Positions 4,601-35,420 of a DNA stretch of 41,457 nucleotides are shown one piece after another. The notes below the pieces were generated by a model. It saw nothing but the letters and a program-made list of their open reading frames with translations. It was not told the DNA's origin and did not search any database. Where the stretch lies: positions 1 to 41,457 of IMG/VR virus record IMGVR_UViG_3300004770_000042. The stretch is one strand, 5' to 3'. How positions within the stretch are numbered: the stretch's first letter is position 1; each line of letters opens with the position of its first letter. The DNA comes from a virus. The position numbers were made by a program, and so were the translations under genes.

Positions 4601-6634
4601 ATGGCATTGTCGTTTAAGCTAACCGAGGATTTCGTGGCGGGATACAGAGGTAAAAAGGTGCCTTGGGGATACCAAGATGCCGCAGGTAATTCTGTCGGTG
4701 AGATCACCTTCCTCCGTACTTACTCCCGTATCAAGGAGGATGGAACCAAGGAGACATGGACAGATGTCTGTGAGCGAGTAATCAACGGTATGTATTCCCT
4801 TCAGAAGGATCACGCTAAGCTGAACCGCTTGCCTTGGTCGGACTCCAAGGCCGCAGCTTCCGCTAAAGAGGCGTTCGATCGTCTATGGAACTTGAAGTGG
4901 ACTCCACCAGGACGAGGACTTTGGGTCATGGGAACACCTATTGTTAATGACCAGCGCAACTCTGCAGCTTTGCAGAACTGTGCCTTTGTATCTACGGATT
5001 CTATGACCAAGCTTAACCCAGCTAAGCCGTTTGCCTTCCTAATGGAAGCTTCTATGCTGGGAGTCGGAGTCGGGTTTGACGACAAGGGCGCAGATAAAGA
5101 CTTTACTATTTATGCCCCCGAACAAGGAGATACATATGTCATCCCAGATACCCGCGAAGGTTGGGTCGAGTCATTTGCCGCCCTCCTCAATAGCTACCTT
5201 AAGCCAGATACGAAGAGCCCAGTCTTTGATTACACCCAGATCCGCCCAGCGGGAACTACTATCAAAACCTTCGGAGGAACTGCAGCTGGACACGAGCCAC
5301 TAGAAAAGCTCCATAACCACATTCGTCGTATATTTGACGGTCGTGGGGGGGAGAAGCTTACCCGTGTAGACCTAGCCGACATTGGCAATCTGATCGGAGT
5401 TTGTGTTGTAAGCGGAAACGTCCGCCGTTCAGCTGAGTTACTCATGGGTCGTATCGATGACGATACTTTCTTGAACTTGAAGAACCCTGAGAAGTTTCCT
5501 GAGCGTAACTCCTATGACCCTGCCAACCCAGGCTGGGCATGGATGTCTAACAACTCTGTCGAGGTATCTGTTGGTCAAGATCTCTCACGCATTGTAGATG
5601 GTATCTCACGTAACGGAGAACCCGGCGTAATTTGGATGGATGTTACACGCAAGTACGGTCGTCTTAAGGATGGAATAAACAATAAAGACTGGAGAGCTAT
5701 GGGCTACAACCCATGCGCAGAGCAGTCACTAGAGTCCTTCGAGTGCTGTACTTTGGTGGAGACTTACCTTAATCGTCATGAGGATCTAGAGGACTTCAAG
5801 CGCACACTAAAGTTTGCTTATCTCTATGCCAAGACTGTAACTCTTCTTCCTACCCATTGGGAGGAGACCAACGCGATCATGCAACGCAATCGCCGTATTG
5901 GAACTTCTGTCTCTGGTGTAGCTAACTTCTCAGATAACAAGGGCTTGCCTACTCTACGTAAGTGGCTCGATGCTGGGTACACCGTTGTTAAGGACTACGA
6001 CAAGGGCTACTCAGAATGGCTAGGTATCCGTGAATCTATCAAGATGACAACTGTTAAGCCTTCCGGCACAGTCTCTATTCTTGCTGGTGAGTCTCCCGGG
6101 GTTCACTGGTCAGTAGGCGGTAAGTACTTCCTACGCGCGATCCGTTTCCGTAATGAAGACCCTATGCTCCCTCTCTTTAAGATGGCACAATACACAGTTG
6201 AACCAGCTAGCGAGGATCCAAGCGGAACTTCTGTTGTGTTCTTCCCTGTGAAGTCTGATGCTAAGCGTTCAGAGAAGGAAGTCTCTATCTATGAGAAGAT
6301 CCACCTTGCCGCTACAGCTCAGTACGAATGGTCAGATAACTCTGTATCAGTAACAGTCTCTTTCGATCCTGAGACTGAGAAGGATGTTATCAAGAGCGTA
6401 CTTCATATGCACGAAGGTCAACTCAAGACTGTCTCTTTCCTTCCATCAGGTAATACTATCTATCCACAGATGCCTTACACACAGATCACAGAGGAAGATT
6501 ACGAGAGTTATCGCATGAAGCTCTTCCCTATCGATCTCGTAGGTGTCTACGCGGGTATGGCAGCTGATGCTATCGGAGAGGCTTACTGCAGCACAGATGC
6601 CTGTGAAGTGAAGTTGATTAAAGACAACCAGTAA
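4601..6634 (+). CDS. nrdJ: class II (adenosylcobalamin-dependent) ribonucleotide reductase, monomeric type
   Basis: 677 residues, near the length of monomeric ribonucleoside-triphosphate reductases. It makes dNTPs for phage DNA synthesis. Visible signatures: C127 in NCAFVST, the N-P-C372-x-E374 active-site motif with the second redox Cys at C383 (11 residues later, as in the Lactobacillus enzyme), GNVRRSAELL, TVKPSGTVSILAGESPGVHW, and a C-terminal swinging pair C663-x4-C668. ATG 4601 follows GAGAGATATTA. A strong terminator follows. A B12-dependent enzyme implies that the host makes or imports cobalamin. Confidence 0.93.
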   Translation: MALSFKLTEDFVAGYRGKKVPWGYQDAAGNSVGEITFLRTYSRIKEDGTKETWTDVCERVINGMYSLQKDHAKLNRLPWSDSKAAASAKEAFDRLWNLKWTPPGRGLWVMGTPIVNDQRNSAALQNCAFVSTDSMTKLNPAKPFAFLMEASMLGVGVGFDDKGADKDFTIYAPEQGDTYVIPDTREGWVESFAALLNSYLKPDTKSPVFDYTQIRPAGTTIKTFGGTAAGHEPLEKLHNHIRRIFDGRGGEKLTRVDLADIGNLIGVCVVSGNVRRSAELLMGRIDDDTFLNLKNPEKFPERNSYDPANPGWAWMSNNSVEVSVGQDLSRIVDGISRNGEPGVIWMDVTRKYGRLKDGINNKDWRAMGYNPCAEQSLESFECCTLVETYLNRHEDLEDFKRTLKFAYLYAKTVTLLPTHWEETNAIMQRNRRIGTSVSGVANFSDNKGLPTLRKWLDAGYTVVKDYDKGYSEWLGIRESIKMTTVKPSGTVSILAGESPGVHWSVGGKYFLRAIRFRNEDPMLPLFKMAQYTVEPASEDPSGTSVVFFPVKSDAKRSEKEVSIYEKIHLAATAQYEWSDNSVSVTVSFDPETEKDVIKSVLHMHEGQLKTVSFLPSGNTIYPQMPYTQITEEDYESYRMKLFPIDLVGVYAGMAADAIGEAYCSTDACEVKLIKDNQ

Positions 6635-6793: not shown

Positions 6794-7090
6794 TCACAGA
6801 AAATTAAGGGATGTTGCGAAGAAAGCTTCAGCGAAGTTACCAGCCATAGCCGATAGATCTCCTATGGAAGCCTCTTTATCTTTAAAAGAGGATTGTAGAT
6901 AGAGTTTAAGTGAATCAGCGTACAGAGCTACGAACTCATCGATAGGCATAGAGTCACCTTTATCATTAAAAGGTACGTCTGATTGAAGCCATCCATCTTC
7001 AAACTTTTTAGCGAGTCTCTCTCCAGCACCGTCAAGGCTTTTCATTGCCTTTTCATACGCCTCTTCACGCGTAAGTCGTTTAGCTTTCAC
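6794..7090 (-). CDS. small helical protein, last gene of the leftward operon
   Basis: 98 residues from GTG 7090, with AAGGAG seven bases upstream. Predicted mostly helical, amphipathic, no Cys or membrane segment. It overlaps the preceding small gene by 11 bases. Function unknown. Confidence 0.6.
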   Translation of the reverse strand: MKAKRLTREEAYEKAMKSLDGAGERLAKKFEDGWLQSDVPFNDKGDSMPIDEFVALYADSLKLYLQSSFKDKEASIGDLSAMAGNFAEAFFATSLNFL

Positions 7091-7205
7091 TTACTAACTC
7101 CTTATCCCATATCTTTTGTAGATCAGCCACGGTCAACTCTTTGTTCATTGTCTTGATGACAATAGTGGTAGTTACCTTAGTCGTTATCGTCGTTGTTATC
7201 TTCAT
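7080..7205 (-). CDS. 41-residue Thr-rich peptide
   Basis: Starts ATG 7205 inside the end of the 33-residue gene upstream and ends overlapping the next gene. The N-terminus is nearly all Thr, Ile, Val and Lys (MKITTTITTKVTTTIVIK); the C-terminal half is a charged helix. The Shine-Dalgarno (GAG AGTGAAG) is weak, so support rests on tight packing. Confidence 0.4.
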   Translation of the reverse strand: MKITTTITTKVTTTIVIKTMNKELTVADLQKIWDKELVSES

Positions 7206-7278
7206 CTTCACTCTCTTCCCATGGGGTGAATGTAGGGTTAGTAATATGCCAGTCAGGTAGAGGATTATTAAAACTCAT
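7177..7278 (-). CDS. 33-residue acidic peptide
   Basis: ATG 7278 overlaps the upstream stop as ATGA. The product ends in a run of Asp, Glu and Asn (EESEDEDNNDDND). The acidic tail could act in protein binding, for example as a nucleic-acid mimic, but this is inference. Supported by coupling and operon position. Confidence 0.45.
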   Translation of the reverse strand: MSFNNPLPDWHITNPTFTPWEESEDEDNNDDND

Positions 7279-7556
7279 TCTGCCACCTTATACATGACAT
7301 CACCCATGAACTCTACTGGCTTGTCATTCTCTCCAAGCTTAGTGGCAACCATCTTGATCGATTTGCGACCGGTGATCTCCAGCAAAATCTTTTTAACGTG
7401 TCGCTTAGCTGCCGATGGGTTTGACCAGGCTGTATAGTCCTGCACACCATTGCCAAGATTAGGCTCATCAATACGAGTCAAGGTTAACCATGACCCACCT
7501 TGCGCGGTGTTCTTTGTGATCCGCGCATGAAATCTCTTTTCGATCTTTTTAGCCAT
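7275..7556 (-). CDS. small basic protein, unknown function
   Basis: 93 residues from ATG 7556, with AAGGAG eight bases upstream; the longer in-frame start would run deep into the upstream gene. The N-terminus is basic and beta-like (KRFHARITKN), followed by a helix SAAKRHVKKILLEITG. A small alpha/beta protein; nucleic-acid binding is possible from the charge. Confidence 0.6.
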   Translation of the reverse strand: MAKKIEKRFHARITKNTAQGGSWLTLTRIDEPNLGNGVQDYTAWSNPSAAKRHVKKILLEITGRKSIKMVATKLGENDKPVEFMGDVMYKVAE

Positions 7557-8040
7557 TTCTATCTCCTTTATAAGTAAGCGAACGTTCCCACTTAGTGCCA
7601 TCGCCACGGTCTTTCCATGACAACTCCATAATCTCAGGGAAGTCTAGCAGACTCTCTATCTTTTGCTTAATAGCCGTCACGCTCGCTTCATCTTCTAGTC
7701 TTACCTTTAAATACACACAGTTTTGCCACTTAGGATCTTTGCGTTTAGGTCTCTCTCTCCTTATCTCTATTTCAGGTGGCTTGACTTGACCAGTTTCTTC
7801 ATAGTACCTAAGCATCTCTATTCCAAGCTTGAGCATCTTTTTAGTACGCTCCGCGCTTATGCCGTGCACCTTTTGTATTTCTTGAATACTTTTAGGCATC
7901 CCATCTCTAAGCCCATAGCGCATGGAAATTAAACCTTGAAGTCTCACTCCTAACCCAGCCTTTTCCATAGTTAAGAACGGATCATCTTCATAGTCGAACG
8001 TGTAGCTCCAGTCGCGCAGGTTTGTTTGTGTTGAGATCAC
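7549..8040 (-). CDS. orphan sigma-region-4-like DNA-binding protein
   Basis: 163 residues from GTG 8040 (GTGA overlap with the upstream stop). Residues about 34-80 (RLQGLISMRYGLRDGMPKS, then IQEIQKVHGISAERTKKML) match the pattern of sigma-70 region 4: a LxxRYGL helix, an acidic turn, the I-x-E-I-x-x-x-x-G-I-S helix-turn-helix and a recognition helix. No regions 1-3 are present. The C-terminal half is an unknown alpha/beta domain with many charged residues. It could recognise -35 elements or bind RNA polymerase. The HTH is visible; the regulatory role is inference. Confidence 0.55.
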   Translation of the reverse strand: MISTQTNLRDWSYTFDYEDDPFLTMEKAGLGVRLQGLISMRYGLRDGMPKSIQEIQKVHGISAERTKKMLKLGIEMLRYYEETGQVKPPEIEIRRERPKRKDPKWQNCVYLKVRLEDEASVTAIKQKIESLLDFPEIMELSWKDRGDGTKWERSLTYKGDRNG

Positions 8041-8261
8041 GCGCCCTCACCCCACTCCCGGGCTACGTCATAACTAGACTCTAACTTAACTATCTCAGTC
8101 TGATAGGTGGCGGGGATGAGCCCACCCATAGTCCCTACCTTCATAGGGCTATCGATCTCATCTCTTAGCCGTTCTTTCATAAACTCCAGCTCAGCGGTGG
8201 ATAGGACTCTATCGGTTATAAACTCTATGTCTAGCTTGTATTTGCGAGCTTTTACTTTCAT
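8037..8261 (-). CDS. small unknown protein
   Basis: 74 residues, overlapping its neighbours by four bases on each side (ATGA and GTGA junctions). A beta strand with alternating hydrophobic residues (KYKLDIEFITDRV) is followed by an amphipathic helix, suggesting a compact alpha/beta fold. No motif recognised. Confidence 0.6.
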   Translation of the reverse strand: MKVKARKYKLDIEFITDRVLSTAELEFMKERLRDEIDSPMKVGTMGGLIPATYQTEIVKLESSYDVAREWGEGA

Positions 8262-8815
8262 GCTACTGTATCCTTTCCAGCGTTCATCGCTTCCTCTACT
8301 GAGCCATAACCCCAGCAGGAGTCTATGACTTCTTTACTTGTGTGACCACAGCAGTCACACTTTGTATTCTTATAGGCGGTATAGCCATAGAAGTCTCCTT
8401 GCAGATACTTGTCATAAATCTCTACCTCTTTACGGAGGATCTCCTCAGCGGTGGCAATATCGACACCTTCAGCCTTGATAGCTTCTTTAGTGGCATAGAT
8501 ATAACCAACCATTCCGCTATCCCACTCAGCGTGGGGAGCGCGTCCAACGAATGAACCAACACTCATAGATATACCACTATGGTCATAAAGGTATAGTGGC
8601 AGGACTACTAAACTATCCTTCTTAATAGCATCAAACAATTCCTCGGCGGAGTTGTAATCATTCAGCGAGTAACCAGTATTGCTATCACCTAAGTTATAAC
8701 GCTTGTGCCAGCACACCATCTTTCCCAAGTTGTCCCAGTCGCGCGGGTTCATAGGGTCAAGATCAGGCGTAACTTCAATAGTAATGTCGTCAATTTCTAA
8801 AGTATCTAGGCTCAT
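8258..8815 (-). CDS. unknown protein with a CxxC zinc motif
   Basis: 185 residues. I start at ATG 8815, 11 bases after AAGGAG, rather than at GTG 8827, which would touch that site. Features: KMVCWHKRYNLGD (about 32-44), LVVLPLYLYDHSG (about 69-81) with a catalytic-looking D-H, WDSGMVGYIYAT (about 98-109), and a C-terminal CDCCGH cluster. Similar proteins with these blocks are common hypothetical proteins in large phages as far as I recall. Function unknown. Confidence 0.65.
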   Translation of the reverse strand: MSLDTLEIDDITIEVTPDLDPMNPRDWDNLGKMVCWHKRYNLGDSNTGYSLNDYNSAEELFDAIKKDSLVVLPLYLYDHSGISMSVGSFVGRAPHAEWDSGMVGYIYATKEAIKAEGVDIATAEEILRKEVEIYDKYLQGDFYGYTAYKNTKCDCCGHTSKEVIDSCWGYGSVEEAMNAGKDTVA

Positions 8816-8817
8816 TG

Positions 8818-9042
8818 TTAAATCCACTCCTTAATATATTCACGGTAATTTTCATCATTCCACCATAGCCACTCCTCGATAGTAAACTCTGTCTCGCGGA
8901 GTAACCTCTTTGTCCCATAAATAGAGAACGCATCTCTACCTTTGAGCTCAGGAAATACACTCTCTACACCTTCCCAGAACGCGTTGAGTCCAGCTTCGAT
9001 GGCATCATTCACGCGCCGATCGTATTCAGTCATCTCTTTCAT
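8818..9042 (-). CDS. small acidic helical protein
   Basis: 74 residues rich in Glu and Trp, predicted all-helical. The ATG overlaps the upstream stop (ATGA) and AAGGAG lies just upstream. The last residues (WLWWNDENYREYIKEWI) are unusually aromatic. Function unknown. Confidence 0.6.
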   Translation of the reverse strand: MKEMTEYDRRVNDAIEAGLNAFWEGVESVFPELKGRDAFSIYGTKRLLRETEFTIEEWLWWNDENYREYIKEWI

Positions 9043-9176
9043 TCTTTGTTCTCCTTGTTCTCTAGATAGAATAAGTAATCTAGTGCCTTAGCTACTTTAC
9101 CCTGCAATTCAGGCTGGTAGGTAAGATCAACGAATAACTGTGCCAGCGTGTCTTTCAATAGATCTTTATAGTCCAT
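9039..9176 (-). CDS. 45-residue helical peptide
   Basis: ATG 9176 is preceded by AAGGAG at good spacing and the stop overlaps the next ATG (ATGA). One or two amphipathic helices and a Lys/Glu-rich end. It overlaps the upstream gene by 11 bases in another frame. Function unknown. Confidence 0.55.
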   Translation of the reverse strand: MDYKDLLKDTLAQLFVDLTYQPELQGKVAKALDYLFYLENKENKE

Positions 9177-9285
9177 TTATTTCTCCTTCTAGTATTTCGA
9201 CTCCATGCCATATGAAGCCCTCTTGATAACGTGTTACTTGCCCTAATATATCGAACCATTGTTCATCCACCTCAGCGGTGATCAT
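9166..9285 (-). CDS. 39-residue peptide
   Basis: ATG 9285 lies six bases after the upstream stop, with GAGGGTG as Shine-Dalgarno. Acidic, with several aromatic residues. No motif. Supported by the gap it fills in the operon and by its ribosome site. Confidence 0.5.
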   Translation of the reverse strand: MITAEVDEQWFDILGQVTRYQEGFIWHGVEILEGEINGL

Positions 9286-9290
9286 AAACT

Positions 9291-9473
9291 TCACCCTCTA
9301 ATCTCCTCCAACTCTTCTTCATCAAGCGGATAGACTTGATCTCCCATGCCATACCCGATACCAGTCTGAATAACGATCTCACCCTCAGTAACTACCACTA
9401 GGCAATTAGGGAGTATCGACTCGAAGAACGCGCGAAACTCTGTGTAATCCTCTACTTGATTAAACTCTTTCAT
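9291..9473 (-). CDS. small acidic protein
   Basis: 60 residues. The start ATG 9473 forms an ATGA overlap with the upstream zinc peptide; the earlier in-frame ATG at 9491 lies inside that gene. The strand-rich middle (NCLVVVTEGEIVIQTG) and Glu-rich tail suggest a small beta fold. Function unknown. Confidence 0.55.
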   Translation of the reverse strand: MKEFNQVEDYTEFRAFFESILPNCLVVVTEGEIVIQTGIGYGMGDQVYPLDEEELEEIRG

Positions 9474-9574
9474 GCCATTACCTCCACACATTGATTACAG
9501 TACATTTCTACTTCGGTATCCCATTGAATAGGATGGCGGGCATCTCTGCACCCACACTCAGCACACTTAGCCAT
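9470..9574 (-). CDS. 34-residue zinc-ribbon microprotein
   Basis: Contains C-x2-C-x-C (CAECGC) near the N-terminus and C-x2-C (CNQC) near the C-terminus, a minimal zinc ribbon. The ATG lies within the last codons of the upstream gene (8-base overlap) and the stop overlaps the next ATG. Missed by normal length cut-offs but well supported by Cys spacing and packing. Confidence 0.6.
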   Translation of the reverse strand: MAKCAECGCRDARHPIQWDTEVEMYCNQCVEVMA

Positions 9575-9761
9575 TAGTTAACCTCTTATTCAGATCGGCG
9601 CAGAAGTAATCCTCTATATCCTCATACTTAGATAGCCATTCTTGCGCATTCTCATCCCATATATGACCATTGTCATAGTTGATAGATACACCATCCCAGT
9701 CGATACTCCATGAGTTGGTCTCTGTGTCCCATATAACTACATAGTGATACTGCTTACTCAT
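9567..9761 (-). CDS. small Trp-rich acidic protein
   Basis: 64 residues with repeated aromatic turns (IWDTETNSWSIDWDGV, HIWDENAQEW), acidic overall. ATGA overlap with the upstream gene. No known family; probably a small beta-rich binding protein. Confidence 0.6.
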   Translation of the reverse strand: MSKQYHYVVIWDTETNSWSIDWDGVSINYDNGHIWDENAQEWLSKYEDIEDYFCADLNKRLTNG

Positions 9762-9910
9762 GCTTCCACCTTCTCCACAGTATTTTGGATAACGCGGGTA
9801 ATTACCTTGTGATTAGTGTCTAGATTATGAACCATGACCTCGAACCGTGATCGGCTGGTCTTGGTCAGGATGGCATAATCACAGTCTAAGCAGACAACTG
9901 CACTTGTCAT
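9758..9910 (-). CDS. 50-residue unknown protein with a CxxC pair
   Basis: ATGA overlaps at both ends. Begins MTSAVVCLDCDYAI; the single CLDC pair could bind metal with a partner. The remainder is beta-like and polar. Function unknown. Confidence 0.5.
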   Translation of the reverse strand: MTSAVVCLDCDYAILTKTSRSRFEVMVHNLDTNHKVITRVIQNTVEKVEA

Positions 9911-10104
9911 TCTTTGTCACTCCATATCTCAATATGATTAATAGTTGCGCCCCACTCTGTCTCTGTCTTTACATCAATATCTACACCGTCTCTATCCCAC
10001 GGTTCTAACACCTGGAGAGTAATTGAGCTGGCAATAGAGTCGATCTCATCAGCGGTAAGCTTCCTATCAGTCCTAAAGTTCATAACTACTTGATACGCTT
10101 GCAT
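9907..10104 (-). CDS. first gene of the 10104-6794 leftward operon, unknown
   Basis: 65 residues from ATG 10104, with AAGGTG nine bases upstream (GTG 10110 is the alternative but overlaps that site). An alternating beta pattern with an acidic helix (LTADEIDSIASSI) suggests a ferredoxin-like small domain. It is read from the cassette-1 promoters. Confidence 0.6.
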   Translation of the reverse strand: MQAYQVVMNFRTDRKLTADEIDSIASSITLQVLEPWDRDGVDIDVKTETEWGATINHIEIWSDKE

Positions 10105-10190
10105 AATCACCTTCTAGATAATCAATTCGGCGGAGACTGTCTCCACTAAGAGGAACCTATACCCTAGAGAGGAGAAATAGAGGGATTTTT

Positions 10191-10212
10191 GATAACGATT
10201 AGATAACGATTT
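10191..10212. repeat. tandem 11-bp repeat GATAACGATT(A/T)
   Basis: Two copies, GATAACGATTA and GATAACGATTT, head to tail. The same pair, with small changes, occurs near 11939, 13318, 14074, 14715, 15997 and 16694, in the six main cassettes 77-87 bases upstream of the first start codon of the leftward operon. Probable activator or repressor site. Confidence 0.7.
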
Positions 10213-10284
10213 ATACAACCCCTCAATACCCCCATAGAACCCAGTTTTGGCGGGTACTGTCTAATTAGGAATAGATATAAGGAT

Positions 10285-10316
10285 AGATACTCTCTCTCTC
10301 CTCTCTCTCTCTCTCT
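10285..10316. repeat. CT-dinucleotide tract beside parS
   Basis: About 30 bases of almost pure CT dinucleotides end three bases before the parS site; read leftward this is a GA tract. Cassettes 2-6 have a shorter AGAGAG element at a comparable place, so this is an expanded version. Such tracts slip easily and can form unusual structures. Confidence 0.5.
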
Positions 10317-10318
10317 TG

Positions 10319-10334
10319 TGTTTCACGTGAAACA
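10319..10334. promoter_or_regulatory. canonical ParB-binding site (parS)
   Basis: TGTTTCACGTGAAACA is a perfect 16-bp palindrome identical to the chromosomal parS consensus used by ParB/Spo0J-type proteins in most bacteria, including Actinobacteria. ParB nucleates here, loads as a CTP clamp and supports ParA-driven segregation. No parA or parB gene is in this window, so it would be read by a ParB from the host or from elsewhere on the phage. It lies in the largest non-coding gap of the leftward region. Confidence 0.85.
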
Positions 10335-10427
10335 TCTCTCTCAGCTAGCTCACAGATAGCTCTCAGCCTATTATCAGATACCTCCCCAGCCAACTACCCC
10401 CAACTTCTGGTCATACATCCACTTATC

Positions 10428-10443
10428 GATTTGTCGACATTTG
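10428..10443. repeat. 16-bp motif GATTTGTCGACATTTG, copy 1
   Basis: Identical to 32845-32860, just upstream of the terminase gene, and closely similar to 35406-35420, just upstream of the portal gene. The core TGTCGACA is a perfect palindrome. Probably a binding site shared between the leftward control region and the late genes. Confidence 0.6.
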
Positions 10444-10563
10444 ACAGTAGCCGAATTGCCCTAGCAGATCGGTGGCTCCGGTGTCAATAGTCCCAGGCTG
10501 TGATTCCGGTCACATCTCTCTTGCATATATATTCCCTAATGGGGAGGGTGGGTCAACACAAAC

Positions 10564-10612
10564 AAAATGCCCGGTCAATCGCCGCCACTACACGGTGATC
10601 GCCGGGCATTTT
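10564..10612 (-). terminator. intrinsic terminator of the 11863-10633 operon
   Basis: AAAATGCCCGG (10564-10574) pairs with CCGGGCATTTT (10602-10612) with further pairing inside the loop. Read leftward it ends CCGGGCATTTTGTTTGTG, so its U-tail runs straight into the -35 region of cassette 1. Confidence 0.8.
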
Positions 10613-10632
10613 GCCGGGGAAACAGCTGCTAA

Positions 10633-10869
10633 TTACTCTTCGTCCTCCTCATCCGGACCGTAAGTGAGCTTAGCCCAATGAGCTACCACGCTATTGATCA
10701 GCCATAGGCATTGCCCATCTGTGTAATCCTCTCCAGGCATACCCGGGATATCTCCTATGAGATCTACTACCTCTCCATCCATGCCGTTATAGGAGAGCTC
10801 TCTGGCTAGGAACTCCAATATCCGCCCCGTTACTTCTTCGGTGCTCTTCGTACCACCTTCAATAGTCAT
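10633..10869 (-). CDS. small acidic protein, last gene of its operon
   Basis: 78 residues from ATG 10869 (ATGA overlap with the upstream stop; the longer frame is a shadow of that gene). Helical N-terminus (TEEVTGRILEFLARELSY), a Gly-Asp-rich middle and a DEEDEE tail. Function unknown. Confidence 0.6.
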   Translation of the reverse strand: MTIEGGTKSTEEVTGRILEFLARELSYNGMDGEVVDLIGDIPGMPGEDYTDGQCLWLINSVVAHWAKLTYGPDEEDEE

Positions 10870-11048
10870 CGTGCCCACACTCCTTCTAAGGTCATATTGA
10901 CGTCTAATACCTTGAACTCTCCAAGATTTAGCCCGTTTTCCGCCAACCACTGCGTAGCGAGCCGTTCAGCCTGCTCCTCATCATCAGCACTAATCACTGT
11001 CGCTACACTGAAATAGTCCATGATGAAGGTAACTGTGTAGTCGTTCAT
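10866..11048 (-). CDS. small ferredoxin-like-fold candidate
   Basis: 60 residues with strand-helix-strand pattern (YTVTFIMDYFSVATVISAD, then DDEEQAERLATQWLAENG, then FKVLDVNM), as in small phage proteins of split beta-alpha-beta type. Overlaps neighbours by four bases on both sides. Function unknown. Confidence 0.6.
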   Translation of the reverse strand: MNDYTVTFIMDYFSVATVISADDEEQAERLATQWLAENGLNLGEFKVLDVNMTLEGVWAR

Positions 11049-11266
11049 TCCCGATCCTCTCCTTTTAGCACTAATGTGTCATGCTCAGACTCAGCTTTGA
11101 GGGATACGATGATCGTGCCGTCCTCATTCTCCCAGCGGAAGAACTGGTAGTCGCACTCTTCGCACCTCCCGTCCATGTCGTTAATCATCTCTATGGTGTT
11201 GTCGTCTATGCTTTCCCAGCCACAGACGATACAAGTCACCTTGATACAGCCGTGATAAGTAGTCAT
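11045..11266 (-). CDS. 73-residue zinc-ribbon protein
   Basis: C-x2-C at CIVCGWESID and C-x2-C at CEECDYQF form a four-Cys zinc ribbon; an additional Cys lies at residue 7. The beta-rich C-terminus follows. Its ATG overlaps the TAA of the upstream peptide. Possible nucleic-acid or protein-binding module. Confidence 0.6.
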   Translation of the reverse strand: MTTYHGCIKVTCIVCGWESIDDNTIEMINDMDGRCEECDYQFFRWENEDGTIIVSLKAESEHDTLVLKGEDRE

Positions 11267-11412
11267 TACAGCCTCCCAAACTTCGCCAAGATGTGTTGTA
11301 GGGCTTCGGTGGCACCTTCACCCCATAGGTGGTCAGCAGTATCCGCGGACTCCTCCACGAATTGCTTAATCTCCTCTAGGTGACTCTCTATGTAATCGAG
11401 TACCTCATTCAT
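11266..11412 (-). CDS. 48-residue helical peptide
   Basis: ATG 11412 forms an ATGA overlap with the upstream stop, and its TAA shares a base with the next ATG. One long acidic amphipathic helix (VLDYIESHLEEIKQFVEE) and a second at the end. It fills an otherwise unexplained gap exactly. Confidence 0.6.
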   Translation of the reverse strand: MNEVLDYIESHLEEIKQFVEESADTADHLWGEGATEALQHILAKFGRL

Positions 11413-11645
11413 GGCATTATCCCTCCGAATAGGAACCCTCCGCCATTGCCTTCCTCATCGCGGGAGACTTCTATCTCTCCGATGTGACCATCAGCAAAAC
11501 GGATAGTGAAGGATGGGAAAGGGTCATTACCCCATTCAGGGTCGTCCTCTTTCATCCCATTGAACTTCAAGATGGTGGCACCCACTAGCGAGCCGTAGTA
11601 CTTCTCGTAGAAGGCTTTTCTCTTTTCTAGGTAGTTAGTAGTCAT
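11409..11645 (-). CDS. small unknown protein
   Basis: 78 residues, coupled to the upstream gene by TAATG. Basic N-terminal helix (LEKRKAFYEKYYGSLVG) then a beta domain (PSFTIRFADGHIGEIEVSRD) and a Gly-rich end. Looks like a small SH3-type barrel, but no family is recognised. Confidence 0.6.
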   Translation of the reverse strand: MTTNYLEKRKAFYEKYYGSLVGATILKFNGMKEDDPEWGNDPFPSFTIRFADGHIGEIEVSRDEEGNGGGFLFGGIMP

Positions 11646-11863
11646 TATTCCTCACACTCACAGTCGGATAAATAGTTATTGCAGTCATTACACTCAGTTG
11701 TTGCTAGGAAGTCAGAGAACCCAACGCGGTAGGCGATAGGGTCTAACTCATAAAGGGCGCGGGATGTGTCATACTCATACCCAGCGACCATGACGGTGCC
11801 CCATGCTTCATCGAGACTCTCTTTGTAAAACTCCTCTAATTCGTATTCCTCATATTTAGCCAT
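11645..11863 (-). CDS. first gene of the 11863-10633 operon; acidic Cys-tail protein
   Basis: 72 residues. ATG 11863 is seven bases after GATAGGA, the Shine-Dalgarno of every cassette; ATG 11869 is possible but too close. Strongly acidic, with C-x2-C and C-x-C near the end (CNDCNNYLSDCECEE). Similar tails occur in other small phage proteins; function unknown. Confidence 0.6.
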   Translation of the reverse strand: MAKYEEYELEEFYKESLDEAWGTVMVAGYEYDTSRALYELDPIAYRVGFSDFLATTECNDCNNYLSDCECEE

Positions 11864-12068
11864 GTTCATTCCTATCAGTAGTAGTGGACTTGCAAGACAA
11901 AATCTACCCCATCGAACCCCTAAAACCCTCTCTTTTTTCATAACGATTTGATAACGATCCAGCTCCCAGGAAACTCCCGGCCGGTCCTCAGCTCATTCCC
12001 GGCTAACTCTCTCTTACTTACTCCCTTAGATAGTTAGAGACTAGGGAGGGTGGGTCTCAACACAAACA
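11864..12068 (-). promoter_or_regulatory. regulatory cassette 2
   Basis: Leftward order: TGTTTGTGTTGAGA with -35 TTGAGA (12055-12060), spacer CCCACCCTCCC, -10 TAACTA (12031-12036, 18-base spacer); AGAGAG; CCGGGA-type repeats; tandem CATAACGATTTGATAACGAT (11939-11958); -10 TAGATT (11901-11906) 32 bases further; Shine-Dalgarno GATAGGA. Drives the 11863-10633 operon. Same architecture as cassettes 3-6. Confidence 0.65.
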
Positions 12069-12076
12069 TTCGGGCA

Positions 12077-12155
12077 CAACAAAGGCCGGCAACCCCCTGG
12101 CTGCCAGCCTTGTTGTATAGAACCCCCGCGAGCCTGACTCATTCAGGGGTTCTAT
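12077..12155 (-). terminator. two consecutive hairpins ending the 13238-12179 operon
   Basis: Leftward, a perfect 10-bp stem ATAGAACCCC/GGGGTTCTAT (12117-12126 with 12146-12155) is followed by a longer imperfect stem CAACAAGGCTGGCAG/GCCGGCCTTTGTTG. Together they probably stop leftward transcription before cassette 2. Confidence 0.7.
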
Positions 12156-12178
12156 GTTTTACCTGATAGGAGGTAAAT

Positions 12179-12286
12179 CTAGCTCTCGCAATCGTGACCG
12201 GTGTACCACTCTTCAGCTTGAACCTCATCTAGAAGGTTGAACACACGATCGCACTCAATACAGCGAGCTACAGTTGATAGTTTCAT
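12179..12286 (-). CDS. 35-residue Cys-containing microprotein
   Basis: ATG 12286 overlaps the upstream stop (ATGA) with GAGGTG as Shine-Dalgarno. Contains CIEC near the start and HDC near the end, a possible minimal zinc knuckle (C-x2-C...H-x-C). Last gene before the terminator pair. Confidence 0.55.
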   Translation of the reverse strand: MKLSTVARCIECDRVFNLLDEVQAEEWYTGHDCES

Positions 12287-12822
12287 GCACTCACCTCCTC
12301 TTTAGGGCAATCGTCAAAGCGGTACTCTTCATCCTCACAGCCATAACAGTAATCGAGGTACTTCATGCTATCAGCGTGAGTTTCGGGGATGTCCCACGCC
12401 TCCTCCTCAATGACCTCTCCATTCTTGTAGGTGACCACGCCTCCCCAGCCTTGTTCCTCTAGGTACTCATGGACAATGCCAGCGGATGGATAGAGTTCAG
12501 CGAGCGCGGAAATCACAGTAGGTGGAGACCATGGCGTATTGAAGGTATAGAGAACATCTTCATCTGAGGAAGACTCTACATTCAGGTCACTAGCGTCCCA
12601 CTTACAACCCCAATGGTTGAGGTTCCAGCCATACCAGCCAGATGGGTCATTCATGGTTTTACCATTAGTACCCACGACATCGTTATACGCCTCTAAATCG
12701 GTAGGCGCGATAATCTGCCAGAAAAAGCCTTGTTCTAAGTCTTTCTCTAAGCGAGCGCGAATCTCTTTAATGACCTCTGACTTAGCGGTAATCGTCACGC
12801 TATTGCTAACCCAATTTGGCAT
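12283..12822 (-). CDS. DUF1281/Api92-like protein with ferredoxin-like domain
   Basis: 179 residues. Begins MPNWVSNSVTIT and has WNLNHWGCKWDASD followed by TPWSPP, the hallmark of the DUF1281 (YubB/Api92-like) family of plasmids and phages. The C-terminus carries extra Cys residues (CYGCEDEE, DDCPKEE) that are not typical and could bind zinc. The role of the family is not known. Coupled to the upstream gene by TAATG. Confidence 0.75.
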   Translation of the reverse strand: MPNWVSNSVTITAKSEVIKEIRARLEKDLEQGFFWQIIAPTDLEAYNDVVGTNGKTMNDPSGWYGWNLNHWGCKWDASDLNVESSSDEDVLYTFNTPWSPPTVISALAELYPSAGIVHEYLEEQGWGGVVTYKNGEVIEEEAWDIPETHADSMKYLDYCYGCEDEEYRFDDCPKEEVSA

Positions 12823-13238
12823 TAGAGAATCACCTCCTCTCTCACAATAGGGGTTTCGGCAACCTCACCGAATGTGCGCTCATAGAGGTCACGCCCAGCC
12901 TGCCACTCTGACCAATAGCCATCTGAACCGACACTCAATGCCTCACCAAAATAGTACTTAGCGCGGATAAGGACGGCGGTAACTACCTCATCATAAGGCT
13001 TGAAAGCAGTCTTACAGAAATTCATGTCCTGCTTATTGCTGAGGTGAAAAGTTTCATGGCTTCTCTCTCCTACGCCGTTAAAACGAATGCGCTCACCCAA
13101 TTCAGGTAAGCCAGTACCATCCCAGCCAGCGATACCAGCCTCTGAGTTCTCAATAATTGCGGTAACATCTCCTACTAAGGCATTCCAATTCTCTTCATGA
13201 ATAGCCTCCTTTACAGTAAAGTAATGTGTATAGCCCAT
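12822..13238 (-). CDS. conserved phage protein of the MGYTHYF type
   Basis: 138 residues. The N-terminus MGYTHYF is a recurrent signature of small hypothetical proteins in many phages as I recall. Later blocks: IAGWDGTGLPELGERIRFNG and ETFHLSNKQDMNFCKTAFKP. GATAGGAG precedes the ATG. First gene of its operon under cassette 3. Function unknown. Confidence 0.7.
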   Translation of the reverse strand: MGYTHYFTVKEAIHEENWNALVGDVTAIIENSEAGIAGWDGTGLPELGERIRFNGVGERSHETFHLSNKQDMNFCKTAFKPYDEVVTAVLIRAKYYFGEALSVGSDGYWSEWQAGRDLYERTFGEVAETPIVREEVIL

Positions 13239-13441
13239 TTCAGTCTCCTATCAAAGAACTAGCGATTTGCTAGTGACTAAAACCTATCACCTAATCCCCC
13301 AAAATCCCCCAAAATTAGATAACGATTTAATAACGCTTGCCTGAGAATTAGCCTGGAATTAGCCGGGGACCGGCAGCTCTCTCTCAACAACTCCCTTACG
13401 TAGTAAGTACAGAACAGGGAGGGTGGGTTCCAACACAAACA
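13239..13441 (-). promoter_or_regulatory. regulatory cassette 3
   Basis: TGTTTGTGTTGGAA with -35 TTGGAA (13428-13433), C-rich spacer, -10 TACTTA (13404-13409, 18-base spacer) overlapping a small hairpin; AGAGAG; CCGGGA-type repeats; tandem GATAACGATTTAATAACG (13318-13335); -10 TAGGTT (13281-13286) after 31 bases; 5' hairpin ACTAGC/GCTAGT; Shine-Dalgarno GATAGGAG before ATG 13238. Confidence 0.65.
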
Positions 13442-13502
13442 ATCTGAGCTACAAAATGCCGAAAGGGGCAGGGGATTTCTCCCCCACCCCCTGAAGCTTG
13501 AC
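13442..13502 (-). terminator. terminator region of the 13993-13505 unit
   Basis: Leftward, a G-rich imperfect hairpin (GGGGG...CCCC) is followed by TGCC-CCTTTC-GGCA and then TTTTG. It sits right after the stop of the DUF4192-like gene and ends where cassette 3 begins. Stem strength is moderate. Confidence 0.5.
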
Positions 13503-13504
13503 TC

Positions 13505-13993
13505 TTAGGCGTTCACCGTCCCAAAGATCTCCTCGCACACCTTCGGATGTAATGAGGTACGCATCTCTGTGAAGGCGGAAGGCTTCCAACCAGCAAGATA
13601 GACACGAGTGAGCAACTTACCTAGCGGATACTTCTCACTTGCCACTCCGAGTCGGATAAGTGCCAACTTGGTATCTCCTGACTCAAAGGCAATCAAAGAC
13701 TGGAAGCAAGCAGGAGCATAGATACCAGCAGGTACCACACTCACTAAACGGTTAATCTGCTCAACATGGGTTTTATTATCTTTATCCATGATACCGAGTA
13801 CATAATCGCGGATAGAGAGTTTATCGAAAGAAGCAACCAACTTAGGGAGATCCACATCATTATTGGTATCAGCCAGCCAATTATCAACCGCGCGGGCACT
13901 TTCAACCATCCACTCGCTACCAGCGTCCCAATCACTATCTACGCGGACGGCGCGGTTTGCCATAACTTGCGCCTTAAATTGTGTCTTGTTCAT
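13505..13993 (-). CDS. DUF4192-like protein
   Basis: 162 residues from ATG 13993, seven bases after GATAGGAG. The C-terminal half follows the DUF4192 pattern: a Pro-Ala-Gly helix (VVPAGIYAPACFQSLIAF), short acidic Gly turn (ESGDTKLALIRLGVASEK), YPLGKLL, then a final helix ending GWKPS. DUF4192 proteins are small actinobacterial proteins of unknown function, also seen in actinophages. About half the usual family length, so the N-terminal part is reduced or divergent. Confidence 0.55.
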   Translation of the reverse strand: MNKTQFKAQVMANRAVRVDSDWDAGSEWMVESARAVDNWLADTNNDVDLPKLVASFDKLSIRDYVLGIMDKDNKTHVEQINRLVSVVPAGIYAPACFQSLIAFESGDTKLALIRLGVASEKYPLGKLLTRVYLAGWKPSAFTEMRTSLHPKVCEEIFGTVNA

Positions 13994-14204
13994 CTTTACT
14001 CCTATCAGTACATCCACCGACTTGGTGAATAGTTGAACCCTACCCCATGCCCCACGATTTGCCCCTAATTTTTAATAACGATTTGATAACAATTAATTCC
14101 CAGCCGGTCCCCAGCTAACTCCCGGCTAGCTCACAACTCTCTCTTTAATAATCCCTATTACGAAGTAATAGTTGGATCAGGGTGGGTGGGAGCCAACACA
14201 AACA
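13994..14204 (-). promoter_or_regulatory. regulatory cassette 4
   Basis: TGTTTGTGTTGGCT with -35 TTGGCT (14191-14196), C-rich spacer of 17, -10 AACTAT (14168-14173) in the hairpin CTATTACTTCGTAATAG; AGAGAG; CCGGG-type repeats; tandem AATAACGATTTGATAACAATT (14074-14094, listed in halves under 20 bases elsewhere); -10 TAGGGT (14037-14042) after 31 bases; hairpin CACC/GGTG; GATAGGAG; ATG 13993. Confidence 0.65.
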
Positions 14205-14226
14205 AACCCCGCGCTTGGCGGGGTTC
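14205..14226 (-). terminator. intrinsic terminator of the 14635-14232 unit
   Basis: AACCCCGC and GCGGGGTT flank a five-base loop. Read leftward the stem is followed by TGTTTGTG, which is both the U-tail and the first part of cassette 4. A compact fusion of terminator and promoter. Confidence 0.8.
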
Positions 14227-14231
14227 GCTTA

Positions 14232-14525
14232 TTACTTATCCTCAATGACCTTTATCTCTGCGCCTTTGGCGCGGATAACTAGTACAGAGTCAGTAGGGAT
14301 AGAACGAAACGCCTTCTTATCCATGTCCCAGACTGGAATTAACTTCTTTTCGTCAGCGTCGTACTTAAGGACTCCGCCGACTAACTTTGACTTGTAATTC
14401 GTAGTCGCGCGCATGGTGCGCAACTCACCCGTAGTGCGCTTGATAAAGTCAACAGAAAAGAAACTGCCATTAAGCGAGCGCAAGAAAGTATGAATTTGAG
14501 CGCGTGTCAGTTCTACAGTTTCCAT
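14232..14525 (-). CDS. Sm-like SH3-barrel protein (WYL_2/DUF2693-type)
   Basis: 97 residues. Pattern FFSVDFIKRTTGELRTMRA followed by TTNYKS and VWDMDKKAFRSIPTDSVLVI matches the small viral SH3-barrel proteins in which a basic first strand pair binds nucleic acid. The ATG shares a base with the TAA of the upstream zinc peptide. Family assignment is from pattern; function unknown. Confidence 0.6.
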   Translation of the reverse strand: METVELTRAQIHTFLRSLNGSFFSVDFIKRTTGELRTMRATTNYKSKLVGGVLKYDADEKKLIPVWDMDKKAFRSIPTDSVLVIRAKGAEIKVIEDK

Positions 14526-14635
14526 TATTCGTCACATCCCTCACAGATAAATACCCACTCTGCTCCAACCTCAGAACGTACAAAGTGACCGCTATGCGTG
14601 GCGAACTTACCACCGCAACCGTTACAAGCTTCCAT
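14525..14635 (-). CDS. 36-residue zinc-ribbon microprotein
   Basis: C-x2-C (CNGC) near the N-terminus and C-x2-C (CEGC) near the C-terminus, 26 residues between, a complete minimal ribbon. GATAGGAG lies seven bases before ATG 14635. First gene of the unit under cassette 5. Confidence 0.65.
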   Translation of the reverse strand: MEACNGCGGKFATHSGHFVRSEVGAEWVFICEGCDE

Positions 14636-14827
14636 TATTAACTCCTATCAGAGAGTCGGCGTTTTGCCGATAGATGAATAGTAACCCCTACCCGTCGGAA
14701 TACACGTATTTTTTGATAACAGTTTTATAACGATTTATTTCCCGGCTAGTTCCCGGCTAGCTCTCTCTTATAATGCCCCTTTACGAAGTAAAGTTAGGCA
14801 CAGGGAGGGTGGGTGCCAACACAAACA
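14636..14827 (-). promoter_or_regulatory. regulatory cassette 5 (clearest copy)
   Basis: TGTTTGTGTTGGCA with -35 TTGGCA (14814-14819), 17-base spacer containing CCCACCCTCCC, -10 TAACTT (14791-14796) inside the hairpin CTTTACTTCGTAAAG; AGAGAG; CTAGCCGGGA twice; GATAACAGTTTTATAACG (14715-14732); -10 TACTAT (14678-14683) after 31 bases; hairpin CGGC/GCCG; GATAGGAG; ATG 14635. Confidence 0.7.
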
Positions 14828-14854
14828 TTTCCGGGAGTTTTCCGGGAGCAGGAC

Positions 14855-14880
14855 AAAACCCCCGCCGTGAAGCGGGGGCT
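14855..14880 (-). terminator. intrinsic terminator of the 15917-14902 unit
   Basis: CCCCCGC (14859-14865) pairs with GCGGGGG (14872-14878); leftward it is followed by TTTT. Between it and cassette 5 lies a direct repeat of CCGGGAG. Confidence 0.85.
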
Positions 14881-14901
14881 TGCTTTCCTGATAGGGGAAA
14901 C

Positions 14902-14985
14902 CTATTCGATCGGCTTATCTAAGTGGATCAAGATTCCGACTATGACCATGCCTACCCCTAGCCATAGAGCTACTAAACCGATCAT
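14902..14985 (-). CDS. 27-residue one-helix membrane peptide
   Basis: MIGLVALWLGVGMVIVGILI is a single transmembrane helix followed by a short polar tail (HLDKPIE). ATGA overlap with the ArdC-like gene upstream, with GAGGTG as Shine-Dalgarno. One of five such micro membrane proteins in the window. Confidence 0.55.
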   Translation of the reverse strand: MIGLVALWLGVGMVIVGILIHLDKPIE

Positions 14986-15917
14986 GCGCTCACCTCCTCT
15001 TTGATCTCGGCTTTGCCTAGTACTATCTCGACTGCCTTTGAAGCTTTGGTGATGGCGTCCACTAGAAACTTTGGATCATCTTGGAGAGGACGCAACCATC
15101 CTGCGAGATAGGTGGCGTGATTATCTAGATCTACATCTAGCCCAACTTGATGGAGGAGAGTGACCCCGCCGATCTCCGCTACGAGTTCCTCTTTAGAATA
15201 CCCTGAGTCTCCGTGAGATGTGAAGGGTTCTGCCGTCCAGCGATCCGCGCGTGACTTGTGCCCCGTGCTATGGATTACCTCATGAGCCATTGTCTCCGCG
15301 TATTGGGTTCCACTCTTGAATTGTGAGACGAGTGGGAGAGTGATGGAATCCATGAAGGGAGAATAGTGGGGAGACTCGTTCTCGCCCATCTCCTTATGGA
15401 AGATGGATGGCGCGTTCTGATACTTATTAAGGATAGTCTCTACGGCAACTGGAACCTCCACAGGCTCACGCTTGGTGAGGAATTGGGCGGGTATTGCTAC
15501 ATCCGCGCATTGATCTAGGTTCCAAACAGTAATGGATGAGAACCAAACATTATTGCGGGTCTTAATAGATGATGGAACTAGTTCGCCTTTGCCGACATTG
15601 ACCCAAACGCCATCGATTAGCTTCTGCTTGGTGATCGTAGGCTTAAGGATGTCAGTCGCCCTCTCGCCCTTGCGGACGAATCCGCCTAGATCCTGCGCTC
15701 CTTTATAGGTTACCCATAGTGGGCGCGTGTATCCGCGCTCCTCGCCAATAAGTGAAAGCCACATGGCGTTCACGCCCGTGTAAGCGTGTTTGGTAACTGC
15801 ATTGGTAGGCGAGAATCCCGCCCCGTTCCACGGCTTAAGCCATGAAGACTTACCCTCTTGTAATTGCTTAATGACACGCGCTGTAAGTTCTGCGTGTAAC
15901 TCATCCTTGCTCAACAT
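14982..15917 (-). CDS. ardC: ArdC-like antirestriction protein (zincin metallopeptidase)
   Basis: 311 residues from ATG 15917, with GATAGGGG upstream. N-terminal DUF1738-type single-strand DNA-binding domain (WLKPWNGAGFSPTNAVTKHA, then YTGVNAMWL, and YKGAQDLGGFVRKGE). C-terminal zincin peptidase with H212-E-V-I-H216-STGH and the third-ligand motif EELVAEIGG (about 243-251). ArdC proteins of plasmids protect incoming DNA from host restriction; here it would protect the phage genome early in infection. The final LAGWLRPLQDDPKFL also matches the family. Confidence 0.88.
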   Translation of the reverse strand: MLSKDELHAELTARVIKQLQEGKSSWLKPWNGAGFSPTNAVTKHAYTGVNAMWLSLIGEERGYTRPLWVTYKGAQDLGGFVRKGERATDILKPTITKQKLIDGVWVNVGKGELVPSSIKTRNNVWFSSITVWNLDQCADVAIPAQFLTKREPVEVPVAVETILNKYQNAPSIFHKEMGENESPHYSPFMDSITLPLVSQFKSGTQYAETMAHEVIHSTGHKSRADRWTAEPFTSHGDSGYSKEELVAEIGGVTLLHQVGLDVDLDNHATYLAGWLRPLQDDPKFLVDAITKASKAVEIVLGKAEIKEEVSA

Positions 15918-16108
15918 CTTGTCCCCTATCAAAAGACTCTAGCGATTTGCTAGTGCCCTAAACCTATACCACCAACCAGCAAACCCTGCCAAATTTGATA
16001 ACAATTTGATAACGATTATTTCCGGGACAATTCCCGGCTAGCTCACAGGCAGCTCCCGGCTCTCTCTTACTTACTCCCTTAAACGGGGCGGGTGGGCCAA
16101 CACAAACA
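15918..16108 (-). promoter_or_regulatory. regulatory cassette 6
   Basis: TGTTTGTGTTGGCC with -35 TTGGCC (16095-16100) and a C-rich spacer, but no good -10 at 17-18 bases; the small hairpin is shortened. Then AGAGAG, CCGGGA repeats, tandem GATAACAATTTGATAACG (15997-16014), -10 TAGGTT (15961-15966) after 30 bases, hairpin CTAGC/GCTAG, GATAGGGG and ATG 15917. The upstream promoter may be weak in this copy. Confidence 0.6.
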
Positions 16109-16165
16109 ATGCCGGGAAATGACTGAGGCCCGGGTTGCCCCGAGCCCCAGCTCCCGCCGATCAGT
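16109..16165 (-). terminator. terminator region of the 16571-16169 unit
   Basis: GC-rich imperfect hairpins (GGGGCTCGGGGC with GCCCGGG segments, then CCGGC) lie between the stop at 16169 and TTGTTTGTG of cassette 6. The arrangement matches the other units, but the U-tail is short. Confidence 0.4.
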
Positions 16166-16168
16166 ACC

Positions 16169-16339
16169 TCATGCGAGCACCGCAGGATCTTGTTCTACAC
16201 GCTCCGCGATCGCCTCACGCAACTCGCGCAACTCGCGGTTACTAATCCCCTGAGAGGGGTAATCCTCATCCCTCAAGATGAGATGTACTAGGGCTAGCGT
16301 GCTTACTGTGTCAAAAGCTTGGGCGGTAACTGTGTTCAT
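16169..16339 (-). CDS. 56-residue helical protein
   Basis: ATG 16339 has AAGGAG nine bases upstream and shares a base with the TAA of the membrane peptide (TAATG); the longer in-frame start is inside that gene. Helical, with RELRELREAIAERVEQ at the end. Function unknown. Confidence 0.6.
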   Translation of the reverse strand: MNTVTAQAFDTVSTLALVHLILRDEDYPSQGISNRELRELREAIAERVEQDPAVLA

Positions 16340-16416
16340 TAGTGAGACTCCTTGATGAATGAGATGATGAGGGTCGAAAGGGTAATCCATACAAGCCATG
16401 AAGCGAGGGGGCTCAT
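16339..16416 (-). CDS. 25-residue one-helix membrane peptide
   Basis: MSPLASWLVWITLSTLIISF is a single transmembrane helix with a short charged tail. The ATG forms an ATGA overlap with the upstream gene and the TAA overlaps the next ATG, so it is exactly bracketed by its neighbours. Its start codon lies in a strong hairpin. Confidence 0.55.
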   Translation of the reverse strand: MSPLASWLVWITLSTLIISFIKESH

Positions 16417-22713: not shown

Positions 22714-24220
22714 TAAGCAATTAACAGGAGTTAGTTTGTTTGCTGGTATATAGGCGGGTTTGACCTTGCCATGGAGCGAAACAATATCGATGTTGTAGCT
22801 TCCGTAGAAATCGATAAAAAAGCCAGCGGTATTATCGCTCGGCATTTTCCTAATTCCACATTATTCGGAGATGTTACGGAGGTAACAGGTGAGCAACTCA
22901 TTGCAGCTGGATTCGACCCAAGAAACGGAATCATTACCGGAGGATTTCCCTGTCAAGACTTATCCGTGGCTGGAAAACGCGCTGGTCTTGCTGGCAAACG
23001 CAGTGGGCTGTTCTGGGAGATTGCCCGACTTATTCAAGAAACAGAAACGGAATGGTTCATCCTCGAAAACGTCCCTGGTTTACTCTCATCAAATAAAGGG
23101 AGAGACATGGGAGTTGTTATCGGAACGTTGGCCGAACTCGGGTATGGCATCTCATGGCGTGTGCTTGATGCTCAATACTTCGGAGTACCCCAACGACGGA
23201 GGCGTGTCTTCATCATTGGCAGACGTAATTCAGATGGAGCCACTGCCGCAAAAGTATTATTTGAGCAAGAGAGCTTGCGAGGGGATCTTACGGAGGGCAG
23301 AAAGAAGGGGAAAGACTCTTCCAGAGCCTCTGAAGAGAGCACTATTGCGCGTATGCGAGGATTCGGAGACTACGAACTAGATGACACAACATCTACTTTA
23401 AAGTCACGCGATTGGAAAGACGCTACGGATATTGTCTACAACTGAGTCCTTCTTTGTTAAAAGTCGCAGAGCGCATACTAAAGATGACTATGAAACATGG
23501 GTGGAAAGTAATGTTACTCCCACCCTCAATGGTTTTGATAACAGCGATGAGGGTAGGAGCACAGCTTTGATCATTTTCCATCCGCACCGACATGATGGTG
23601 TTCGTGTTCAAGGAGAAACGGTTAACACATTAACCGCATTTATGGGAACAGGCGGTTTAAATACTCCAATGGTATTGTTAAACGAAAATGAAATTGTTGG
23701 AACGCTTCAAGCCCGGGATTACAAGGGAGTGGGTAATCAATACGTGGACGAGAATAAAATTGTGATAACTGGTATTCAAAATACAGTAGTTGGTAGATCA
23801 GACACAGCAGGTCCACAAGGAAAAGGTCACACAGATGAAGGAGACCCCATGTTTACTGTTGATACGACTTCCCCACACGCTGTCGCTATAACACCCATTC
23901 ATGACACAGCTACCAGATCTGTTGGTAAGCGCAAGCACGCAGATGGTACTTATTCTTACGATGGTAAAGGGAACGGGCTTGGCATTGGAGAAGACGGAGA
24001 CCCTATGAATACTCTTACAGGCGGAGACCGTCATGCTTTAAGCTATGCCTCCACAGTACGTAGACTTACCCCGCTAGAGACTGAGCGTTTACAGGGATTT
24101 CCCGATAATTGGACAGACAATCAAGCGGATTCGTCTCGCTATAAGCAGACTGGAAATGCGGTGGCAGTACCAGTAGTGGATTGGATTTTAGGGCGCCTTG
24201 TCTCTGAACACATGGGATGA
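22706..24220 (+). pseudogene. C5-cytosine DNA methyltransferase broken by two frameshifts
   Basis: Three frames together make one complete enzyme. Frame A, ATG 22706: MSSKQLTGVSLFAGI then TAG 22751. Removing two bases from TATATA (22746-22752) restores FAGIGGFDLAMER. Frame B to 23445: motif IV GGFPCQDLSVAGKR with the catalytic Cys at 22951, ENVPGLLSS and QRRRRVFIIG. It ends at TGA 23443; a loss of two bases near CTACAACTGAG would explain this, because frame C continues TESFFVKSRRAHT, the target-recognition region, and motifs IX-X (RRLTPLETERLQGFPDNWT, KQTGNAVAVPVV). Either a decayed gene, a phase-variable gene or assembly errors. If intact it would methylate cytosines to evade restriction. 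Confidence 0.8.
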
Positions 24221-27710: not shown

Positions 27711-27992
27711 CTATGCCACTCTTTTATTTCTAGCCGTTCTTATGTCTTCTCGTTGCCACTCATTGGTACCTGCCCACACCCCAACTAACTCGGGATGAAC
27801 GATGGCATACTCTAGGCAAGGCTCCTTAAACTCACACGACGCGCATAGTTTACGCGCCGTATTAAGGGTTAGTCTAGGGTTTTCCGAATCGTCGGGGAAA
27901 AAGATCTCTGGATCTACCTGAGCACATACTTGAGTCCCATCAAATAGAGGGGCTTTAATACCAGCTGTGCTTCTTCCAGAACGTCCAAGCAT
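27711..27992 (-). CDS. WhiB-like iron-sulfur transcription regulator
   Basis: 93 residues from ATG 27992, with GGGAG eight bases upstream. C23, then C50-x2-C53-x5-C59 (KLCASCEFKEPC) bind a 4Fe-4S cluster; GVWAGTNEWQRED is the Wbl turn that contacts sigma factor; a basic C-terminus (TARNKRVA) binds DNA. Wbl proteins are confined to Actinobacteria and their phages; phage copies can repress host whiB2 or block superinfection. Overlaps the hydrolase gene by 38 bases. Confidence 0.92.
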   Translation of the reverse strand: MLGRSGRSTAGIKAPLFDGTQVCAQVDPEIFFPDDSENPRLTLNTARKLCASCEFKEPCLEYAIVHPELVGVWAGTNEWQREDIRTARNKRVA

Positions 27993-35405: not shown

Positions 35406-35420
35406 ATTTGTCGACAATTA
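35406..35420. promoter_or_regulatory. ATTTGTCGACAATTA motif upstream of portal
   Basis: Third copy of the TTTGTCGACA element; here the core extends to a perfect 10-bp palindrome TTGTCGACAA. It sits 38 bases before the portal start, followed by TATTATTGATAGT. Likely promoter element or operator. Confidence 0.5.

Follow-up and report, generated by a model that had tools for sequence, protein, structure and literature searches.

The window considered here, meaning the whole stretch of DNA that was analysed, is a linear IMG/VR record of 41,457 bp, or about 40% of the ~96-98 kb expected for the entire genome. The JGI sample numbers may indicate a freshwater origin. It encodes TerL, portal and major capsid proteins, and the nearest named phages are the Streptomyces phages BRock, LuckySocke, Alone3, pSt2308 and GiJojo (112-116 kb), with identities of about 55% for TerL and about 72% for the major capsid protein; these named kin have a tail sheath. 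The window is a fragment of a Borock-like actinophage genome of roughly 96 kb, and because the 98-kb record G008 matches its left arm and its TerL alike, a chimera is unlikely. Also present are a class II ribonucleotide reductase (RNR; 4601-6634, + strand), for which the three cellular homologs found all belong to Actinomycetota, and a WhiB-like regulator, an actinobacterial marker (27711-28007, - strand). The WhiB protein, the Streptomyces-phage kinship and the actinobacterial relatives of the RNR point to an actinobacterium as the presumptive host. Neither a DNA-level search for named relatives nor a TerL search for a host genome returned a match, and searches with ArdC and with the protein encoded at 8258-8827 recovered distant loci only. 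In the subset of proteins scanned from this fragment, no integrase, repressor or immunity, or replication-initiator genes were recognised. With this result, and with phages of 112-116 kb as the nearest named kin, persistence as a phage-plasmid, one of the options raised by the sequence-only reading, is conjectural. A DNA methyltransferase is split over two overlapping ORFs (22771-23445 and 23432-24220), with a similar split in the relative G158, and the repeat-rich right end of the contig carries tandem repeats with periods of 18, 27 and 72 bp (41072-41315).

The parS site and its leader

At positions 10319-10334 lies a 16-bp palindrome, TGTTTCACGTGAAACA, that agrees exactly with the chromosomal-type parS consensus TGTTtCACGTGAAACA and is the only match to this 16-mer in the window when up to three mismatches are allowed. 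It resides in a non-coding gap of 522 bp (10111-10632), directly beside a CT tract (AG on the transcribed strand) of 28 nt at 10290-10317. The number of exact matches expected by chance in the window is 1.2e-5 under an iid model and 3.7e-6 under an order-3 Markov model. The sequence-only reading had claimed an exact chromosomal-type parS at this position, in the largest gap of the leftward region and beside a 30-base CT tract, and had held a chance match to be very unlikely. The identical 16-mer, the size of the gap (the runner-up in the leftward region, 6794-16399, measures 456 bp) and the order-3 Markov expectation all bear this out, and the tract is indeed present, although not at the length given. 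The intergenic position of the palindrome was also considered as support and was set aside as unspecific, since control palindromes are mostly intergenic too.

The parS forms part of a composite non-coding leader (10111-10562, - strand), which includes an early-promoter-like motif, GTTTGTGTTGACCCACCC (10546-10563, - strand), that is conserved in relatives. Just upstream of this motif is a strong hairpin resembling a bidirectional terminator (10563-10613; fold z = -5.4), preceded by a gene on the - strand listed as an ORF at 10633-10950, whose true start is probably nearer 10872. Between the promoter motif and parS the leader carries a GGCTACTG motif (10445-10452, - strand; CAGTAGCC on the + strand) and a TTGTCGACA motif (10431-10439), and beyond the CT tract an iteron-like tandem, GATAACGATT-A-GATAACGATT (10191-10211). 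The first gene downstream (9907-10110, - strand, ATG at 10104) encodes 67 amino acids without a credible family. From promoter motif to first gene the leader spans about 441 bp, whereas the distance is 117-190 bp for the majority of the motif's other copies. The early promoter motif is present once more in the window, as GTTTGTGTTGGCCCACCC (16090-16107, - strand), ahead of an ArdC-like gene. The TTGTCGACA motif recurs intergenically at 32848-32856 and 35408-35417, ahead of the terminase and portal genes, and its copies are likely sites for a phage regulator. No known RNA families were found in the window.

Recurrence of the leader and of parS in relatives

Five lineages, namely the window, G158 with its near-duplicate G159, G182, G192 and G008, have the same element, in a single copy per genome. 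Along the direction of transcription it consists of a promoter-like motif, GTTTGTGTTGRCCC[AT]CCC, followed by TGTCGACA and then the AG tract, which is found in all five lineages, as is the TTGTCGACA motif (placed later in G182); GGCTACTG and GATAACGATT-like repeats are further motifs that the elements have in common. Leader length ranges from about 385 to 540 bp, the G182 value being taken from the ORF at L409:14498. The early regions of these genomes hold additional copies of the promoter motif. The gene that follows the leader varies between genomes, and the gene at 9907-10110 is not the one found there in relatives. Because the element is kept while the downstream gene changes, a role in cis is favoured. 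The iteron-like repeats and the long leader suggest that the element may be a replication origin; a skew-based origin call on G158 was uninformative.

A small conserved early protein (11409-11645, - strand) served as the query for relatives whose sequence includes the left arm. An alignment of this protein (A1) led to 80 loci, fetched without selection for parS; two of its four seed sequences came from parS-bearing records (G082 and G069), neither of which is among the matches counted. When 50 whole records were searched with up to two mismatches, four parS matches were obtained, all one mismatch away from the 16-mer: AGTTTCACGTGAAACA in G158 and G159, TGTTCCACGTGAAACA in G182 and TGTTTCACGTGGAACA in G184. 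The expectation for these 2.16 Mb is 0.03, the probability of at least three matches is about 5e-6 when three are counted as independent, and a reversed-pattern control gave none in the 50 records.

Within the leader, parS is present in three of the five lineages, as the exact 16-mer in the window, as AGTTTCACGTGAAACA in G158/G159 and as TGTTCCACGTGAAACA in G182, and in each of these carriers it is the only parS of the genome. Its spot differs: in the window it borders the AG tract, in G158 it precedes TGTCGACA and in G182 it follows TGTCGACA. In G184 the site is outside the leader, where the rightward region starts. Whole-record searches with up to two mismatches found no parS in G185, G192 or G008, and the five complete Streptomyces relatives gave none even with one mismatch in the 14-bp core; the site is therefore dispensable. 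Had it been absent from every close relative, the proposal of the sequence-only reading would have fallen; it survives, in that related genomes carry parS in the same non-coding element, but at different spots and with several relatives lacking it. Conservation across the TerL family is not apparent, with 0 of 50 TerL relatives carrying the site, most of them fragments that miss the left arm. A tree of the RNR places the window beside G185, a genome without parS, and intersperses carriers with non-carriers, which suggests gain or turnover. These patterns suggest that parS has been repeatedly gained or turned over within one cis element, in lineages that number only three, and that the site is under selection within the leader.

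Since parS sits within a conserved leader that follows an early promoter motif, transcriptional control has to be taken as a serious rival, and as the foremost one. Host ParB clamps might hold back the early leftward operon, or set its timing, in step with the cell cycle or CTP state of the host, deferring lysis without any role in segregation. The placement fits, as in all three carriers the site follows the promoter motif, roughly 125-300 bp downstream. There is also precedent, because Pseudomonas aeruginosa ParB represses genes beside inserted or intergenic parS sites (PMC7022226) and phages are reported to use the host regulators CtrA and Spo0A for such control or timing (PMC9437464). However, genes adjacent to parS in Bacillus subtilis are unaffected by the lack of Spo0J (PMC7022226), the downstream gene differs between genomes, and G184 has its parS elsewhere. 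On balance, promoter control appears rather unlikely to be what the site is for.

Far less probable is that the palindrome serves as an operator of a DNA-binding protein encoded by the phage and resembles the host site through convergence on CACGTG. The element does hold other repeated motifs that are specific to these phages, TGTCGACA and GGCTACTG among them. Nevertheless, an operator would be expected in several copies per genome and at a fixed place, whereas parS is present in one copy and in some genomes only; a ParB-type core is always retained, and control palindromes with a CACGTG core are rare in phages.

Three large WhiB-bearing contigs, L020/G069 (96.7 kb), L060/G109 (100 kb) and L033/G082, each have one exact parS beside a terminator-like hairpin and share with the window the 11409-11645, DUF1281 and WhiB proteins.

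Partition genes, host chromosomes and precedents

Profile searches for ParB (TIGR00180, PF02195) and ParA (PF13614) gave no hits in the window, in agreement with the earlier claim that its 41 kb hold no parA or parB. As the window is a fragment, this absence is weak alone, and the gap is filled by longer and complete relatives. An extended search for the two genes, which the sequence-only reading had called for, found neither in G158, G159, G182, G184, G185, G192 and G008, nor in the five complete Streptomyces phage relatives, and control genomes gave the expected signals. G158 has identical 114-bp ends and was taken as complete, and G008, G185 and G192 are 96-98 kb in length. A self-encoded parABS system, with phage-borne ParA and ParB, was thus not found in the window or in the relatives searched, and its location elsewhere in the genome was discarded as an explanation after the longer and complete relatives had been searched.

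The 16-mer is present in 59 of 148 Actinomycetes genomes (a reversed control gave 0), and the claim that the site is of host type stands, because the same sequence adjoins parA and parB in Actinomycetes chromosomes. This is so at the loci L479, L480 and L485, and in L478, from a genome of 1.5 Mb whose GC content at this locus is 47%, it lies within dnaA-gidB-parA-parB. Among the smallest Actinomycetes genomes of this set the exact 16-mer is mostly missing (incomplete genomes or variant sites), so that the match to the real host is presumptive.

A host-type site in a phage without partition genes has a known counterpart. Phage phi29 (L486) has four TGTTTCACGTGGAACA sites, at 10445, 15903, 17243 and 18760, that differ from the 16-mer by one mismatch and that we take to be of the B. 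subtilis parS type; it too has no annotated parAB genes, and the combination of a host-type parS with the lack of parB recurs in the window and its relatives. The phi29 genome is trapped in spores by the host protein Spo0J, which its dormancy makes use of (PMC9437464). The two cases differ in that phi29 is the small, protein-primed phage of a spore former and its four sites are dispersed, whereas the window derives from a ~96-kb actinophage with one site inside an early leader and a host not known to sporulate. The window parS, which is probably functional, would extend the phi29 kind to an actinophage that is free of ParAB and in which the site recurs in one conserved element. Actinophages RedRock and Miko also carry a parS through which their DNA is partitioned, but they encode ParA and ParB and their sites are 8-bp direct repeats (PMC7157519), unlike the host-type site of a phage without ParAB. 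The nearest named phages of the window, BRock, LuckySocke, Alone3, pSt2308 and GiJojo, have no parS with up to one mismatch in the 14-bp core.

We therefore regard the palindrome, with high confidence, as a candidate functional site for host ParB, and phage DNA is probably handled by that protein. After infection, ParB-CTP clamps of the host would load at the phage parS and slide over neighbouring DNA, such that the phage genome would be treated as an oriC domain. It could then be bound to ParA or SMC, come to lie at the origin or pole of the host, and pass to daughter cells during slow or arrested infection, as in pseudolysogeny or a carrier state. The favoured reading, held at about even odds, is that the site is a centromere-type ParB loading site acquired to use the chromosomal ParABS of the host in trans; anchoring or segregation of phage DNA is its most likely main benefit, again at about even odds. 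A chromosomal par operon together with a single parS does stabilise plasmids (PMC7022226). The proposal leads to a testable claim, that the host centromere machinery could allow phages of slow-growing actinobacteria to persist although they have no partition genes of their own.

The site might instead act against the host, as a decoy that titrates ParB or as a competitor of the host origin that disturbs segregation. The copy number of a phage rises during replication, which would favour such an effect. The mobile element SGI1 likewise has an orphan parS that exploits the ParABS of another replicon; its parS mimics use the system of an IncC plasmid and destabilise that helper (PMC10954446). SGI1, however, carries two copies and its donor is the helper plasmid, whereas the donor for the window phage is presumably the host chromosome, and a single site per genome should make a poor decoy early in infection. 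We give interference of this kind little credence.

Orphan parS sites in viral contigs

At least 120 IMG/VR contigs contain the exact parS, compared with 5 and 11 contigs for two control palindromes of equal composition with a CACGTG core. One flank class accounts for 18 of 120 among the matches listed and for at least 119 when searched alone; if both scans ran in the same order, the total would extrapolate to about 790 contigs with an exact parS. Two or more exact copies occur in 17 of 120 loci among the matches listed. Contamination with host origin regions was rejected as a source of these matches, as homologs of nine actinobacterial ori-region genes were sought in 221 loci and turned up in just one. 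In none of 99 parS-bearing records, many of them fragments, did a ParB match exceed the curated cut-off, and five gave weak matches.

The excess over control palindromes, at least 11-24-fold, also bears on whether the window site is a functionless chance match. The absence of parS from several relatives could be taken that way. With 3.7e-6 matches expected in the window and the site recurring inside the same leader element of relatives, we consider this exceedingly improbable. Orphan parS sites are thus a genuine and frequent feature of phages, and their excess in viral contigs suggests that phi29 is one of many cases. More tentatively, many unrelated phages lacking ParA and ParB may bear a parS of host type that serves as a 'borrowed centromere' onto which host ParB loads, with the present lineage regaining the site repeatedly inside one ori- or leader-like element; this would be a general, largely uncatalogued layer in the interaction of phages with their hosts, a view that we hold with somewhat less than even confidence. 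The site offers a simple sequence marker for finding such phages.

A frequent position of the exact parS in unrelated phages is immediately upstream of the gene for the terminase large subunit. The named relatives checked near TerL (CRP-902, HTVC027P, Pkon1 and MW202675) have no parS there. Among loci with an L044-type TerL homolog, 37 of 66 have parS no more than 1.5 kb upstream of this gene, often at 41-170 nt; examples include contigs L017, L044, L053, L277, L301, L315, L325, L329 and L351. The L044-like lineage (TerL 77-88%) carries clusters of two to five exact copies.
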